A DNA stretch of 38,292 nt, taken from a virus. The stretch spans positions 1 to 38,292 of IMG/VR virus record IMGVR_UViG_3300046530_000032; one strand, given 5' to 3'. How positions within the stretch are numbered: position 1 is the stretch's first letter; each line of letters starts with the position of its first letter. The position numbers and the translations under genes are program-made. Below are positions 7,586-38,292 of this stretch, piece after piece. The notes under the pieces were generated by a model. That model was given only the letters and a program-made list of their open reading frames with translations. It was not told the origin of the DNA and ran no database searches.

Positions 7586-7803
7586 TACAAGTCATTCCCT
7601 ATCTGCTTCTGCTCACCGATGACTTCAAACTCGCCCTCGATTACAGTTCCATTGGATGCGCGATTCGCCATGATGGAGTCATATTCATCCTGCATACGCT
7701 TCCTATCGTGCTCAGCTTTTGCGTTAGCGGCGCACTGTGCGGCAGCAGCGGCTTGCATTGAAGCCACAGCGGAAACAACGCCTGGCCAGATAGGAACAAA
7801 CAT
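7585..7803 (-). CDS. Small helical protein before the terminase
   Basis: 72 residues: a short hydrophobic N-terminus (MFVPIWPGVVSAVASM), an Ala-rich helix, a charged helix and an acidic C-terminus. Not recognised. The ATG at 7803 has GGAGA 8 bases upstream; a TTG further out at 7821 is less likely. It overlaps the small terminase start by one base. Confidence 0.7.
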   Translation of the reverse strand: MFVPIWPGVVSAVASMQAAAAAQCAANAKAEHDRKRMQDEYDSIMANRASNGTVIEGEFEVIGEQKQIGNDL

Positions 7804-13281: not shown

Positions 13282-13445
13282 CCCTTCGCCCTCATAATCA
13301 CATGGTTAGCCCGCTTGGTAGTTCCGTCCTTCCTGACCAGCCTAGCGTCAGCGCCTTTGGTCAGGCGAACTATGTCTCCGTGTCTTTGTACGACCTGGAA
13401 GCCCACGGCGACTAGATCGGATACTGCTTTGTCTTGTGGATTCAT
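13278..13445 (-). CDS. Small basic hypothetical protein
   Basis: 55 residues beginning MNPQDKAVSDLVAVGFQVVQ and ending in a Lys/Arg-rich stretch (VRKDGTTKRANHVIMRAKG). The start overlaps the helicase stop by one base (TGATG) and the stop overlaps the next start as ATGA, so it is part of the coupled chain. Function unknown. Confidence 0.7.
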   Translation of the reverse strand: MNPQDKAVSDLVAVGFQVVQRHGDIVRLTKGADARLVRKDGTTKRANHVIMRAKG

Positions 13446-14827
13446 CAGTCAAACCCTGGCTTGTACTGGCGAGCCTTGAGCGGCGCCTTCGTTTGGCTTT
13501 CATGGTGAGCGATCATGTCCATCGGAGCTGCAGACACAAACCGCTGGAAATTACCTTGGAACTGCAGAACACATGAGCCAGGGCTTGCATGGCGAACTTT
13601 GGCCACGTCCCACGTCGTTATCCCGCTGCGCCCGCGCTCGTCATCTGCCCTGCTGCCGAGTATCACAATGTCGGCGTCCTGTTCGATCTCGCCAGAGTCG
13701 CGAAGGTCGGTCATGCGTGGCTTGGATTCGCCTGCAGCTCGAGACTCTGAAGCGCGGTTGAACTGAGCCAGAACCACGATCGGCAGGTTCAATTCCTTGG
13801 CCAGCGCCTTGAAGCCCCGGGTGAACGAGCCGATCTCCTGGCTGCGGGTCCCGAACCGATCGTCTTTGTCGGCGCGGATCAGCGTTAGGTAGTCGACAAC
13901 GATCAGATGCAGCGGCTTGGCGCGGTGCTGGAATCTGGCGATGTTGCATATCCGACTGAAGGTAAGCGAGCCTTTGTCGCAGATCCGTACGTCGGAGCGC
14001 TTCAAGGTCTCCACAGCCGTTGTGAGCGCCGGCCAGTACTGGTCAGACTCTGATCCGCCCGTATCAATCCAGCCTTTGTCCACGCCGCCAGCAGCGGCCA
14101 GCGCGCGCTTCACCAGCTCAGCACCTGGCATCTCAAGTGAGAAGATCAGCGATGACTTCCCTTCCTTGCTCGAGATCCGGTCAGCCAAGTTGGTCCCTAG
14201 CACGGTCTTGCCTGTACCGGGCCGGCCCGCCACGATCACTAAGTTACCCGGGCGAAGGCCCTTCACAATCCCGTCAAGGTCAGCCAGACCGAAGTCGAGA
14301 CCAATCTCAAGGCGACCATTCAACCGATCGTCCATCTCGTCAATAACGCCTTCCAGCATGTCCTTGTAGTGACGAACATCCGGCACATCCTCGTTTACGG
14401 ACAGGTCAAACAAGGACTGCTGCGCCTCGGCAACCTGAGAAGGAAGCGAGCCTTTGCTACAGGCAAGCTCCATGATTCTCTGGCCTGCCATGTACAGCCG
14501 GCGGGCAACCGATCGCTCAACAACGATCTTGGCGTACGGGATGGCATTCGCCGCGCTTGGGATGTTCCGGCTGATGGTTGCGGCCATGATGATCGTTTGA
14601 TCGCCACTCGGCATAACCTCGAGAACCTCTGACAGCGTGATCGGGTCAGGTCGAATTCCTTTCGCATGGGTCGACAGGATCAGCGTGTACATCATGGCCG
14701 TATCGTCATCACTGAAATCAGATGCGCTCAGGAACGCGCCGATCTCTTCACACAAATCAGGCCTGATCATCAGCGCGCCCAGCACGCCGTGTTCCGCTTC
14801 GGTTGATACAAGGTCACGCTGGCTCAT
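13445..14827 (-). CDS. dnaB: Replicative DNA helicase, DnaB-like
   Basis: 460 residues, full length for DnaB. The N-terminal domain (about 8-105) starts with EAEHGVLGALM; the RecA-like domain has Walker A GRPGTGKT (201-208), Walker B IVVDYLTL (about 309-316) and the VVLAQFNR motif (351-358), with a GEIEQDADIV segment after it. It unwinds DNA at the fork and would be loaded by the initiator encoded just upstream. The ATG at 14827 has GGAG 9 bases away; it overlaps the initiator gene by 14 bases. Confidence 0.96.
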   Translation of the reverse strand: MSQRDLVSTEAEHGVLGALMIRPDLCEEIGAFLSASDFSDDDTAMMYTLILSTHAKGIRPDPITLSEVLEVMPSGDQTIIMAATISRNIPSAANAIPYAKIVVERSVARRLYMAGQRIMELACSKGSLPSQVAEAQQSLFDLSVNEDVPDVRHYKDMLEGVIDEMDDRLNGRLEIGLDFGLADLDGIVKGLRPGNLVIVAGRPGTGKTVLGTNLADRISSKEGKSSLIFSLEMPGAELVKRALAAAGGVDKGWIDTGGSESDQYWPALTTAVETLKRSDVRICDKGSLTFSRICNIARFQHRAKPLHLIVVDYLTLIRADKDDRFGTRSQEIGSFTRGFKALAKELNLPIVVLAQFNRASESRAAGESKPRMTDLRDSGEIEQDADIVILGSRADDERGRSGITTWDVAKVRHASPGSCVLQFQGNFQRFVSAAPMDMIAHHESQTKAPLKARQYKPGFD

Positions 14828-15617
14828 TCGCAAAAACTCCTTCTAAAGTCATTTCGTCAATCAATCTGTCAACAATGTCTGGACGAGTTACAAACTCGAG
14901 AGTCGCCTTCCAAGTCTTCCCTGGCTCTCCGCACCAGTGAGCGTCTCTCAGGCACCATGTGAAGTAATCAGTCCAGAAGTCTCCACTCCTGAATACATGC
15001 TTCCCTTCGACCTTCCTGTTCCAGCATTTCGTTATGTTCTTCTTCCGTGCATCCGTTAGCAGTGCTGCGCCTTTGAAGGTTTTCCCGCAGATCTTTTGAT
15101 ACATCCCAAGGATTCGATCAAACGGGATTTTCCTATCCGATTCCTGCTCTCTCGTTGCCGAAGGCGACAAGTGTTTTTGATCTTGATCTTCTATTGGTGA
15201 AGGTGAAGGTGAAGGGCATTCCTCAAGCATGTGCTCAGGCATTGCTTGAGGAATGCTTGGAGCATCAATACTGATCTTGTTCCAGCGAGCAGCTGCAGCA
15301 TTAGCCGCTTTCTGCGAGGCCTGCGCCTTCTTTTGCCCTGCAGACTGCATTTCCTTCTCAACACGCTTGCTTACCCACTTACCCTCTTGTGATACATCGA
15401 AGAAATTCTCAAGCACTGCTCGAGCATTGCTCCAAGCATCAATTGGCATTCTGCAGATCGCAGCCAATTGCGCATCGCTTGCCGGCAAAGCCCCGCCGTT
15501 CTTCCAGTACGCCATGATCAGCAGCAGATACGCCCCGTGCTGCTCCGTGGTCAGGTGCATGGTGTCCGACAGGTAGTCGCCGATATAGAGCGGCATCCAC
15601 ACGTCAGGCTTGGCCAT
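14814..15617 (-). CDS. Replication initiation protein, DUF1376 type
   Basis: 267 residues. Residues 5-95 are a DUF1376 domain (MPLYIGDYLSDTMHLTTEQH, then AYLLLIMAYW), a winged-helix module of phage replication proteins. The middle is a Ser/Pro linker (about 120-150), and the C-terminus (about 165-260) has a Trp-rich region. It occupies the O position before the helicase gene, so it probably binds the origin and recruits helicase. The coding sequence for residues 60-134 holds repeats that may be that origin. ATG is 1 base past the preceding stop. Confidence 0.85.
   Translation of the reverse strand: MAKPDVWMPLYIGDYLSDTMHLTTEQHGAYLLLIMAYWKNGGALPASDAQLAAICRMPIDAWSNARAVLENFFDVSQEGKWVSKRVEKEMQSAGQKKAQASQKAANAAAARWNKISIDAPSIPQAMPEHMLEECPSPSPSPIEDQDQKHLSPSATREQESDRKIPFDRILGMYQKICGKTFKGAALLTDARKKNITKCWNRKVEGKHVFRSGDFWTDYFTWCLRDAHWCGEPGKTWKATLEFVTRPDIVDRLIDEMTLEGVFANEPA
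15216..15438. other. Candidate replication origin: iteron-like repeats in the initiator gene
   Basis: A perfect 14-base inverted repeat lies at 15216-15229 and 15243-15256 with a 13-base spacer. Related 10-11 base units of the form TGCT..AGCA follow: TGCTTGGAGCA at 15254-15264, TGCTCGAGCA at 15417-15426 and TGCTCCAAGCA at 15428-15438. A GGTGAA triplicate (15196-15213) and GATCTT repeats lie just outside. Lambda has its origin iterons in the same place, inside O. Function here is inferred. Confidence 0.5.
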
Positions 15618-15618
15618 A

Positions 15619-15774
15619 TCAGAGCCCCATATCCTTTGTCAGCGATCGGACAAACTGATGAAACCGCTGCTCGTCGAAAGGCTGATTCTCGGCTACCCAC
15701 TCATCACAAATCCGGTGGTATATGACCCAGCGAGCGCGATCGGACATTCCCTTGTACTTATTGAGCATGCTCAT
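15619..15774 (-). CDS. Small protein coupled to the Cro-like gene
   Basis: 51 residues, charged and aromatic (MSMLNKYKGMSDRARWVIYH at the start), predicted helical. It begins as ATGA on the Cro-like stop and ends one base before the initiator ATG, so it is a true member of the chain. Not recognised; a regulator or replication accessory is possible. Confidence 0.65.
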   Translation of the reverse strand: MSMLNKYKGMSDRARWVIYHRICDEWVAENQPFDEQRFHQFVRSLTKDMGL

Positions 15775-15971
15775 TCCTCTCCAAGCTTGATGAATTCGCT
15801 AACCGGCATTCCGAATACCTCAGCCAGTTTCCGAACTGTTTCTAGCTGAGCTGATCCCCGCGTGATGAATGCGTGGACAGCTTGATTTGACGTCCCAAGA
15901 GCCTTTGCCAGGGCGGTGCGGTTCATATCCTTTTTGGCCATTGCGATATTGATTGATCTTCCGAGGTTCAT
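15771..15971 (-). CDS. XRE-family regulator in cro position
   Basis: 66 residues, essentially one helix-turn-helix domain: RTALAKALGTSNQAVHAFIT (about 18-37), followed by LETVRKLAEVFGMPVSEFI. It is the first gene of the minus-strand unit that contains the replication genes, exactly where lambda has cro. It should bind operators in the divergent region 15972-16184 and set the balance between the two units. AAGGAG lies 5 bases before the ATG. No dimerisation or peptidase domain follows, so it is not a full CI. Confidence 0.87.
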   Translation of the reverse strand: MNLGRSINIAMAKKDMNRTALAKALGTSNQAVHAFITRGSAQLETVRKLAEVFGMPVSEFIKLGEE

Positions 15972-16005
15972 GCCTGCTCCTTAGTGATTAACGATTTGCA
16001 GGCAC

Positions 16006-16034
16006 ACAATAACAATCTGATTCATACGATGCAA
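16006..16034 (-). promoter_or_regulatory. Probable promoter of the replication operon
   Basis: On the minus strand TTGCAT (16029-16034) and TATTGT (16006-16011) are separated by 17 bases, about 40 bases before the Cro-like start codon. The match is moderate, but this is the only reasonable pair in the gap. It is the equivalent of lambda pR. Confidence 0.5.
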
Positions 16035-16045
16035 CAACCGTGTTG
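16032..16045. promoter_or_regulatory. Candidate operator in the first divergent region
   Basis: CAACA, 4-base centre, TGTTG: an inverted repeat overlapping the -35 end of the promoter at 16006-16034. A dimeric HTH protein could bind here and block that promoter. Only one clear copy is seen. Confidence 0.35.
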
Positions 16046-16184
16046 ATATTTTCCTCGACGAACGGGATGGCATAAACTTGACGCATAGCAGCACCTGTAC
16101 CATCCTCAGGTTCCCGAGGAGCACCGGGACAACCCAACCAAGCCTTACAAGGAAGCGGCACACAGACCAAACAGGTAATTCGTC

Positions 16185-16724
16185 ATGACCAATGATCTCG
16201 CCAAGATTTTCACGAACATCGAACACGCAGCCGCTCAGGTAGAAGAGCTGGCAAGTCAGATCCTCGACGCAATCAAGGAGGCCCAGGCGGATACGCTCGC
16301 GGACTTCGAAGAGATGGTCGGGGATGCTTACGATGCGAATGGATGGAATCGACAGGCAGGGAGGCCCGCAGATGGGGCTACGTTGTTGCCGGCGCCTATG
16401 ACGGTGCGGAACTACGTTTCATGGGTCAGGAGGGCTTACAAGGTGGGCCTGGCGGTTCCTGAGTTCGAGACCCTTGGAGAGCTGCGCCGGGCGGTGAAGG
16501 AGTCGAAGGTGAAGCCTGAGCCAGTCCAGCATGATGAGCTTGCCGCACTGCGCGGCGTGAAGATGTCCAAGGATGCCGAACTGATCGGCGCAGTGGTGCA
16601 CGACATCGGCGTTGTCCTTACCCATCTCGACCAGGCCGACCAATATGAGTTCGAGCAGCGCCTACAGAAGCTGATCAAGCAGTTCTCCAAGAAGGCGCAC
16701 ATCGAGGTTGCAGCGGCGGCCTAA
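16185..16724 (+). CDS. Unrecognised protein at the cI locus
   Basis: 179 residues, acidic, mostly helical. The first 50 residues are a coiled-coil-like helix (VEELASQILDAIKEAQADTL), the middle has GWNRQAGRPADGATLLPAPM and then a basic helix pair (TVRNYVSWVRRAYKVGL, ELRRAVKES) that might bind DNA, and the C-terminus is helical again. It is transcribed divergently from the Cro-like gene and alone before a strong terminator, the exact place of cI in lambda. I see no CI domain or LexA-type peptidase. The ribosome site is weak (AGGT), fitting low expression. Confidence 0.8.
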   Translation: MTNDLAKIFTNIEHAAAQVEELASQILDAIKEAQADTLADFEEMVGDAYDANGWNRQAGRPADGATLLPAPMTVRNYVSWVRRAYKVGLAVPEFETLGELRRAVKESKVKPEPVQHDELAALRGVKMSKDAELIGAVVHDIGVVLTHLDQADQYEFEQRLQKLIKQFSKKAHIEVAAAA

Positions 16725-16740
16725 TAACCCAGACAAAACT

Positions 16741-16765
16741 AAGGCGCCTCATGGGCGCCTTTTTT
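16741..16765 (+). terminator. Rho-independent terminator after the cI-locus gene
   Basis: AAGGCGCC (16741-16748), 5-base loop, GGCGCCTT (16754-16761) followed by T residues. On the other strand the stem is followed by AGTTTTG, so it may also stop the convergent small regulator gene at 16777-16965. Confidence 0.9.
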
Positions 16766-16776
16766 GTGCTTGCGAT

Positions 16777-16965
16777 TTACGCTCGCTTCTTCTTCGCCTC
16801 CTTGGATCGCGCCATTTCCTCAAGCTTCATCGCCATTTCTACGGTCTTCAGTCGGCTGGACGGGACATCGTCGCCCCATTGAGACACCGCTTGGCTGGAG
16901 ATCCCCAGCGCCGCACCGGCTTTGCCCGTCCCGCCAAAGAATTCGATCACGTCTTGAGTCTTCAT
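16777..16965 (-). CDS. P22 Cro-like regulator
   Basis: 62 residues of the P22 Cro type: MKTQDVIEFFGG at the start, then AGAALGISSQAVSQWGDDVP (helix-turn-helix and following turn, about 16-37) and a basic tail (KEAKKKRA). It faces the cI-locus gene and diverges from the plus-strand early operon. It should bind the palindrome at 17003-17015 and control the promoters around it. The ATG at 16965 is supported by AGG 6 bases upstream and by homology of the MKTQDVI start; a longer frame to 16998 is unlikely. Confidence 0.88.
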   Translation of the reverse strand: MKTQDVIEFFGGTGKAGAALGISSQAVSQWGDDVPSSRLKTVEMAMKLEEMARSKEAKKKRA

Positions 16966-16993
16966 AAAGCACCTGCCTGTTGTGGATGTCCTG

Positions 16994-17002
16994 ATCATAC
17001 CA
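16994..17002 (-). promoter_or_regulatory. Extended -10 promoter of the P22 Cro-like gene
   Basis: On the minus strand TGGTATGAT gives an extended -10 (TG, one base, TATGAT; 16994-16999 plus 17000-17002). The -35 region is weak, and the palindrome at 17003-17015 lies where the spacer is, so a bound regulator would block polymerase. Confidence 0.5.
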
Positions 17003-17015
17003 GAAAGATTCTTTC
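17003..17015. promoter_or_regulatory. Operator-like palindrome between divergent promoters
   Basis: GAAAGA, one central base, TCTTTC: a perfect 13-base palindrome placed between the extended -10 on the minus strand and the -35 at 17026 on the plus strand. It is the best operator candidate in the window. Confidence 0.55.
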
Positions 17016-17025
17016 ACAAAAGGTG

Positions 17026-17054
17026 TTGACGCGAATGTAATTTGCTTTCATAGT
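17026..17054 (+). promoter_or_regulatory. Promoter of the plus-strand early operon
   Basis: TTGACG (17026-17031), 17-base spacer, CATAGT (17049-17054). Five of six and four of six consensus bases with ideal spacing. This is the equivalent of lambda pL, giving a leader of about 60 bases before the first gene. Confidence 0.65.
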
Positions 17055-17122
17055 TCATCCCACCAAGTCACAACGACTCGGCCAACCACAGACCACAGCA
17101 GCGAACAACGGAGCAAGACAAG

Positions 17123-17320
17123 ATGAAATTCCAATACCGCAATGAGAAAGGCCAATTCATCAGCGAAACCGAAGCAGTTATCGCAGACCTCACCTTCTTC
17201 ATCTCGGAATGGAAGCGTTGGGCAATCCAAGCGCTCCGCAAGGTCGACCGCGCTGAGGCTCTTCGCTGCAAAGCCGAAATGGATGACTGCCGAAGCAAGC
17301 TGAATGCTCTTCAGGCATGA
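17123..17320 (+). CDS. First small protein of the plus early operon
   Basis: 65 residues, helical and charged, with two cysteines in the C-terminal half. GGAG lies 9 bases before the ATG. It stands alone between the promoter and a weak terminator-like hairpin (17339-17358), the position of lambda N, but shows no arginine-rich RNA-binding motif. Function unknown. Confidence 0.7.
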   Translation: MKFQYRNEKGQFISETEAVIADLTFFISEWKRWAIQALRKVDRAEALRCKAEMDDCRSKLNALQA

Positions 17321-17338
17321 AACACATAACTGAATATC

Positions 17339-17358
17339 AAGCCCCTTAACTGGGGCTT
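17339..17358 (+). terminator. Weak terminator or attenuator
   Basis: AAGCCCC, loop TTAACT, GGGGCTT followed by only three T in all. It lies between the first and second early genes and could be a read-through terminator like lambda tL1. Confidence 0.45.
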
Positions 17359-17389
17359 TGCCAGTAACAACACCACCGAGACACAGACC

Positions 17390-21065: not shown

Positions 21066-21116
21066 TGCATTTCATAATGCACTACCCTGACATTGTTCTT
21101 TATTCGGAGTAGTGCA
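21066..21116 (+). promoter_or_regulatory. Overlapping alternative hairpins before the rha start
   Basis: TGCATT/AATGCA (21066-21071 with 21076-21081) and TGCACTAC/GTAGTGCA (21078-21085 with 21109-21116) share bases 21078-21081, so they exclude each other. The second reaches to the base before the ATG and overlaps the ribosome site GGAGTAG. CATAAT at 21073-21078 could also be a -10. Confidence 0.4.
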
Positions 21117-21620
21117 ATGGAAATCGAAATCGCAAAGCATGAAGGCTCGATGGTCGTACGATCCACAGAGATAGCGGCCCACTTTGGCAGGCGACATGAC
21201 AATGTCATGCAGGATATAGAGCGGCTCCTGCGCGGGTTCATCGAACAACCCAACATTTGTAGGAGTGCGTTTTTCTTCGAGAGCAAATTCACGAATGACA
21301 GGAATCGTGAATATCGTGAATACCTGATGAGCCGAGACGGCTTTGCCCTTCTAGCAATGGGATTCACTGGCGCGAAGGCTTTGCAGTGGAAGCTCAAGTA
21401 CATCGATGCTTTCAATCAGATGGAGAAGGCGGCCATACCGACTCAGCGCAGTGCCATGGATCACTACGGAGAGGTCTTAGCTCTCATGGAATCCGACAAA
21501 GAGAAGGCGAGCATCCACGGCAAGGCGTTATCTGAATGGCGCAAGGCCAGGAAGCAGCACATCGAGGATGTGACTATCGCCCATAGCAAGGCCCAACTAC
21601 TACTCAACTTCAAGGCGTAG
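21117..21620 (+). CDS. rha: Rha-family antirepressor-like protein
   Basis: 167 residues. The N-terminal domain (about 10-105) carries the Rha signature: VVRSTEIAAHFGRRHDNVMQ, then EYLMSRDGFALLAMGFTGAK and a WKLKYIDAFNQME end. Such proteins (P22 Ant-like, phi80 Rha) interfere with repressors or host regulators. GGAG lies 7 bases before the ATG at 21117. It stands as its own unit before the recombination genes. Its presence hints at a temperate ancestor. Confidence 0.9.
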   Translation: MEIEIAKHEGSMVVRSTEIAAHFGRRHDNVMQDIERLLRGFIEQPNICRSAFFFESKFTNDRNREYREYLMSRDGFALLAMGFTGAKALQWKLKYIDAFNQMEKAAIPTQRSAMDHYGEVLALMESDKEKASIHGKALSEWRKARKQHIEDVTIAHSKAQLLLNFKA

Positions 21621-23430: not shown

Positions 23431-23450
23431 CGTTGACGGAACTGAACACA

Positions 23451-23473
23451 GCCTGGCATACGCCGGGCTTTTT
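23451..23473 (+). terminator. Rho-independent terminator after recombination genes
   Basis: GCCTGGC (23451-23457), loop ATAC, GCCGGGC (23462-23468) with one G-T pair, followed by five T. Confidence 0.8.
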
Positions 23474-23478
23474 AATGC

Positions 23479-23507
23479 TTGCAATCCTAGCGGATAAACA
23501 CTACATT
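23479..23507 (+). promoter_or_regulatory. Possible promoter after the terminator
   Basis: TTGCAA (23479-23484), 17-base spacer, TACATT (23502-23507). Four of six bases match in each box. It would serve the MerR-like gene and the small genes to 25803. Confidence 0.4.
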
Positions 23508-23558
23508 TCGTTCGTGGCCGCGACTTCTTCGAACTGGTCAAGACAGATAGGAATGAAG

Positions 23559-23720
23559 ATGGAAGACCTGATAAAAGCAAAAGACCTGGCGAAAGCCTTG
23601 AGCGTGAACGTCGAGACGGTTCGGCGCTGGACTCGATCCGGAACCCTTCCTCATGTGGTGATCGGCCAGTCCAAGCGCTACAGCTTGCCGCAAGTTCTCG
23701 CCGCACTGAAAGCAAAATAA
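23559..23720 (+). CDS. MerR/excisionase-like HTH protein
   Basis: 53 residues: KAKDLAKALSVNVETVRRWT is a winged-helix HTH, followed by SGTLPHVVIGQSKRYSL, the usual wing of HTH_17 and excisionase-like proteins. The ATG at 23559 has AGGA at good distance; an ATG two codons earlier (23553) also exists. Without an integrase in the genome it more likely regulates transcription than excision. Confidence 0.82.
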   Translation: MEDLIKAKDLAKALSVNVETVRRWTRSGTLPHVVIGQSKRYSLPQVLAALKAK

Positions 23721-38149: not shown

Positions 38150-38174
38150 GGCCCGGGCCAATCTAGCCCGGGCC
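38150..38174. repeat. GC-rich hairpin between the two surface-protein genes
   Basis: GGCCCGGG (38150-38157) and CCCGGGCC (38167-38174) pair around a 9-base loop. No U-run follows on either strand, so it is not a typical terminator. It lies between paralogs A and B, on the spot where the assembled circle was opened. Confidence 0.7.
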
Positions 38175-38292
38175 GACCGGTTACGACATGCGATAGGTGA
38201 TGAAGGTGTCCGCCGCAGTCTTGCGAGTGCGGAAGTTACCCGAGGTCACAGTCACCACGGCAGCAACACCGACGATGGTGTGGCCAGTAGCA
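38166..38292. repeat. Terminal overlap, right copy
   Basis: Exact copy of bases 1-127. Joining at 38165/1 restores a continuous minus-strand gene order (paralog A at 618-16, hairpin, then paralog B at 38127), which shows that the genome is circular or circularly permuted. Confidence 0.97.

Follow-up and report, generated by a model that had tools for sequence, protein, structure and literature searches.

The immunity regions of phages lambda and P22, which carry cI or c2 together with cro, are the described systems closest to the locus reported here. In each of them, as in this locus, the replication operon begins with a small Cro-type helix-turn-helix (HTH) gene, from which a plus-strand gene diverges, and the recombination arm runs in the opposite direction. 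Cro reduces the expression of the arm headed by its own gene. Unlike lambda and P22, the phage studied here has neither CI nor integrase, and the place of cI is held by an unrelated gene, encoding a 179-residue protein, which is missing in relatives. A second Cro-type gene heads the recombination arm and has no counterpart in the lambda immunity region.

Pseudomonas phage PfAn1 and the phage of IMG/VR record G001 (L108) are also P22-like and have neither integrase nor S24-type CI. They contain a Cro-type gene which heads a DUF1376 replication module and is directly divergent from the early arm. In contrast to the phage studied here, this is their single Cro, and they carry neither the gene for the 179-residue protein nor the P22_Cro gene. 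Thus an early control region of lambdoid type that lacks CI and integrase is found with one Cro in the simplest relatives, and with two Cro-type genes and an inserted gene in others. No description of the 179-residue family or of the two-Cro arrangement was found in the literature.

Genome of the phage

The window, that is, the whole stretch of DNA analysed, comprises positions 1 to 38,292 of IMG/VR record IMGVR_UViG_3300046530_000032. Bases 1-127 are identical to bases 38166-38292, so that a 127-bp end repeat encloses about 38,165 unique bases, and the genes at both window ends adjoin each other in the relative L020. The window is therefore a complete genome. Its genes for the portal, the coat, head closure and tail accessories resemble those of P22, and according to its relatives the host is probably a Pseudomonas.

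A search for tyrosine integrases (PF00589) found none in the complete genome or in 11 relatives. No S24-type repressor was detected in the window or in 15 other records (16 in total), and nothing in the window genome matched PF00717 (S24/LexA-like peptidase). A complete genome that lacks both integrase and CI points to a phage without ordinary lysogeny. Two further genes were observed on the plus strand. One encodes a Rha-type regulatory protein (21093-21620, PF09669, E 1.6e-28) and lies immediately upstream of the Erf gene; the other encodes an excisionase-like HTH_17 protein (23433-23720), though integrase was undetected in the window. Both are possible marks of temperate ancestry.

Two Cro-type genes and the early arms

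A preliminary description of the region had reported two minus-strand Cro-type genes flanking a plus-strand gene for a 179-residue protein, and profile searches confirmed this arrangement. XRE1 (15771-15971, minus strand), a Cro-type repressor of 66 amino acids whose gene leads the replication operon, is a member of HTH_3 (PF01381) with an E value of 1.2e-6 and a score of 28.9 bits (curated gathering cut-off 23). P22_Cro (16777-16965, minus strand), the second Cro-type repressor, has 62 amino acids, is divergent from the rightward early arm and belongs to PF14549 (E 2.4e-13, 50 bits, cut-off 30.2) and PHROG 409.

The boundary between XRE1 and the replication genes is occupied by a 51-residue frame (15619..15774, minus strand), taken from the ORF list, for which neither Pfam nor PHROGs gave a significant family and which has a counterpart at the equivalent place in G001 (L108 4050-4199). 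It is followed on the same strand by a DUF1376 replication or primosomal protein (14814..15617; Pfam DUF1376, E 5.6e-24; PHROG 3992, primosomal protein) and by a DnaB-like replicative helicase (13445..14833; DnaB_C, E 2.7e-66; PHROG 19), the last replication gene behind XRE1. The replication genes in this position are DnaB and DUF1376 in the window, DnaC-like in L007 and other initiators in L008 and L009.

The segment at 15990..16077 separates the two divergent start regions and likely contains the XRE1 operators, as its divergence suggests. Across phages it shows 50-63% identity, against 86-100% in the gene, and it diverges together with the helix-turn-helix of XRE1. No significant palindromic operator was found between XRE1 and the 179-residue gene in any of four phages.

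The rightward early arm starts with a gene of unknown product (17123..17320, plus strand; ORF list, Pfam and PHROGs) and continues with small genes, then Rha, Erf, exonuclease and NinB. Upstream of it are the palindrome GAAAGATTCTTTC at 17003..17015 (p about 0.1 alone), a candidate P22_Cro operator, and a promoter-like site, TTGACG-17-CATAGT at 17026..17054 (plus strand), both of which are kept in L008; the promoter search of this arm found one site, against 0.8 expected in shuffled sequences. At the rightward promoter of L009, beside the P22_Cro gene, two long palindromes, TTTGCAAGCAGCTTGCAAA and TGCAAAGCTCTTTGCA, are adjacent to each other (7677-7705, p 0.0025) and are a good candidate for Cro operators.

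According to family and position, XRE1 would turn down the leftward replication operon and itself as infection proceeds, and P22_Cro would turn down the rightward recombination operon and itself. Cro-type repression of the arms is supported because the XRE1 helix-turn-helix and the segment 15990-16077 diverge jointly, and because the L009 palindromes face the second Cro. The preliminary description had regarded the region as the best candidate for an undescribed control circuit. Its interpretation is supported in part: this is the early control region, each early arm is headed by a Cro-type gene, and the 179-residue protein represents an undescribed family, but a replacement of cI is not supported.

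The 179-residue gene

The gene for the 179-residue protein is located at 16185-16724 on the plus strand. It is convergent with P22_Cro and divergent from XRE1, the latter as originally described. Compared with the close relatives L007 and L008 its dN/dS is 0.07-0.12, indicating purifying selection; because of this ratio and the existence of a 17-member family, the frame is a real gene.

A likely promoter read from the sequence, TTGACG-17-CATCCT, is located at 16078..16106 (plus strand). It occurs with equal spacing in L007 and L008 (CATCCT), and L009 has TTGACA-17-CATAGT (p 0.007). Over the whole family, a promoter-like site lies 37-121 nt upstream of the gene in many members, its support ranging from p 0.003 to none, and several have no promoter scoring above chance. 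No structured 5′ leader was detected on the 179-residue gene (z -0.27). The terminator at which the gene had been said to end was found at 16741..16761; it is bidirectional, readable on either strand, and common to the 179-residue gene and P22_Cro, and shuffled sequences hold comparable terminator-like sites no more rarely. L008 retains this site; in L007 and L009 another hairpin and T run stand in its place.

Empty sites and exchange among relatives

G001 is 81% identical to the window at the nucleotide level over the replication genes. The two are alignable at window positions 13494-15788 and then at 17050-17095, and the intervening part of G001 is about 310 bp with the remainder of XRE1 and the promoter region. 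No homologue of the 179-residue gene was found elsewhere in the G001 or PfAn1 genomes, nor any S24-type CI. The site being empty in these two phages, the 179-residue gene therefore resembles an addition to a CI-less region. The best reading of these alignments is that the gene and the second Cro form an optional cassette, added to a region that already lacked CI. Formally, both genes could instead have been lost from G001 and PfAn1.

The order XRE1, 179-residue gene, second Cro-type gene was found in all four P22-like carriers (the window, L007, L008 and L009), and in L009 the arrangement is kept at 48-49% protein identity. The 179-residue protein of L007 is 97% identical to that of the window, but L007 has an XRE protein of another family as its second repressor. 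The block conserved between the window and L007 extends from the likely promoter of the gene to the terminator, beyond which the second repressor differs. This pattern is that of a unit exchangeable among close relatives. Presence in four phages and absence in two at the same site (G001 and PfAn1) is also one mark of a moron-like unit. As regards the promoter and terminator such a unit has of its own, the terminator was found, and the promoter is kept in three relatives with uneven scores.

In L009 an inserted C-5 cytosine methylase frame (PF00145; 6559-7455, minus strand) separates the 179-like gene from the second Cro. This site seems to be an insertion spot.

Distribution of the family

The family alignment contains 17 members, of which the others are 34-97% identical to the protein of the window. 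Homologues outside the P22-like carriers are 33-40% identical and can be aligned almost from end to end. Those with names come from phages PPpW-3 (ORF-59), Torfinnsbu, DDSR119 (gp35), MR5 (gp06) and pphageBV72. Unlike the window protein, they are encoded on unrelated backbones without adjacent XRE1 or P22_Cro, and they are more basic. The label "guanosine nucleotide pyrophosphohydrolase" on DDSR119 gp35 (L004 4941-5546) was unsupported by our searches; gp35 is a member of the 179-residue family.

The 16 annotated phage records with homologues all belong to phages of Pseudomonas, which represent several unrelated kinds; searching with two other family members gave the same 16 records. Further contigs with family members were found in IMG/VR. 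Most members have no XRE or Cro gene beside them. In the T7-like Krylovirinae carriers, which are phages of Pseudomonas syringae and P. savastanoi, the gene lies within the first 2.5 kb. Early genes of phiKMV-like phages are transcribed by the host RNA polymerase (PMC7552054). The carrier pphageB1 (MT354570.1) was described as lytic and without integrase (PMC8537276). PPpW-3 has an integrase, and therefore the carriers are not all lytic. An integrase match in pphageBV72, on an 817-residue frame and below the cut-off, was taken as spurious. Carriage by Pseudomonas prophages was assessed through scans of species genomes: searches with short peptide patterns, which can miss divergent copies, found no member of the family in the genomes of 84,980 prokaryotic species. 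Plasmids likewise gave none.

The pI is 5.3-5.8 in members located between two Cro-type genes and 7.1-9.9 elsewhere. The former constitute a supported clade, and the acidic shift is one evolutionary event. The acidic pI argues against simple DNA binding by the window protein and leaves room for a protein partner from host or phage.

Fold and function searches

Neither Pfam nor PHROGs yielded a significant family for the 179-residue protein, and the family as a whole gave only chance-level matches to profiles of Pfam, PHROGs, NCBIfam, PADLOC and the PDB. Matches to AFOR_C, HMG_box and holin_NGO1622 were below the cut-off and were rejected. No HTH family of Pfam or NCBIfam was found in any of the 17 members, PHROG matches being sub-threshold only. 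Of the features of a CI repressor, namely an N-terminal HTH, an S24/LexA-like domain and an integrating phage, none was found. Antirepressor families (Ant, Rha, KilA) were not matched either, with 8 members scanned against PHROGs and 17 against Pfam; the Rha homologue of the window phage (21093-21620) is a gene distinct from the 179-residue gene.

AlphaFold2 predicted a mostly helical protein, fairly confident over residues 1-107 and poor around 110-122. Two AlphaFold2 models gave nothing in a Foldseek search against the PDB (best E 2.7 and 1.5). In BFVD, the matches were the PPpW-3 homologue (E 5e-12) and the unnamed viral protein A0A2I7QQ18 (E 9e-4), and no function was indicated. The profile searches and the structure search thus returned no regulatory family or fold, and a regulatory role of the protein is not supported by such a match.

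Role of the 179-residue protein

On balance we favour, at somewhat better than an even chance, the reading that the two-Cro early-lytic control region of a P22-like phage without CI and integrase contains an early accessory gene which is self-contained and whose product probably targets a factor of the Pseudomonas host. Such a gene would have its own likely sigma-70 promoter and the shared terminator, and phages could acquire, lose or swap it as one unit. The product would most likely be made early by the host RNA polymerase and would serve takeover or counter-defence by acting on a host factor rather than on the phage's own switch. The family is undescribed and recurs across Pseudomonas phages of unrelated structure, lytic ones included, as expected of a factor aimed at a feature common to Pseudomonas cells; screens for host takeover or counter-defence could reasonably include it. 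Against the accessory reading, four of four P22-like carriers keep the gene beside XRE1 and a second Cro-type gene, and this constant Cro-flanked position, together with the acidic shift in the P22-like clade, could mean a role in the switch. These same two observations speak for an antirepressor or modulator which binds XRE1 or P22_Cro and so times the two early arms. We consider this unlikely, since most family members occur in phages without an adjoining XRE or Cro gene, the second repressor of L007 is of another family yet its 179-residue protein is 97% identical, a Rha homologue is already present in the phage, and no antirepressor family was matched. It is likewise a rather unlikely idea that the family is a new class of phage regulators which in the P22-like clade became a third component, linking two independent Cro repressors so that a switch without CI times the replication arm against the recombination arm.

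The preliminary description had proposed that the protein replaced cI as a repressor or an antirepressor, and this proposal found no support: the site is empty in G001 and PfAn1, homologues lie away from Cro genes, and there is no integrase. A repressor of a new kind in the place of cI would imply a lysogenic, plasmid-like or carrier state, or superinfection immunity. Its place and direction relative to XRE1 are those of cI, Rha and the excisionase-like HTH protein hint at temperate ancestry, and the carrier PPpW-3 has an integrase. However, the complete genome has no integrase, no other CI is present in the relatives that lack the gene, homologues occur in lytic T7-like phages, no copy was detected in species genomes, and the protein is acidic with no HTH or repressor family match; we regard such a repressor as improbable. 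An accessory of DNA metabolism, helping replication or recombination without a host target or regulatory role, would agree with the lack of any functional match and with the DNA-metabolism genes among the neighbours in several carriers. Nevertheless, the replication genes of the carriers are mutually unrelated, and the T7-like carriers hold the gene in their first 2.5 kb, away from the replication genes, so that this role too appears unlikely.

A conserved intergenic hairpin

A hairpin, AAGCCCC-TTAACT-GGGGCTT, is located in an intergenic position at 17339-17366 (plus strand) of the window and is followed by TGCCAGTA. It usually has TAACCAACCCCGCCCACCTC upstream, and an ATG is present 14-45 nt downstream at 41 of 43 sites. 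The stem and the 3′ tail are constant, as the search pattern required, and the loop varies (TTAACT, TTAATT, GAAA or TCAC). The hairpin was also found twice in L009 (7893-7919 and 8148-8174) and in L004, L011, L015, L016, L123 and L124-L169. The Pseudomonas phages that have it are unrelated to each other, and 46 stretches of IMG/VR phage contigs, about 6-106 kb in length, contain it. No Rfam family matched it and no paper on it was found. This conserved hairpin may be a more unusual feature than the region of the 179-residue gene.
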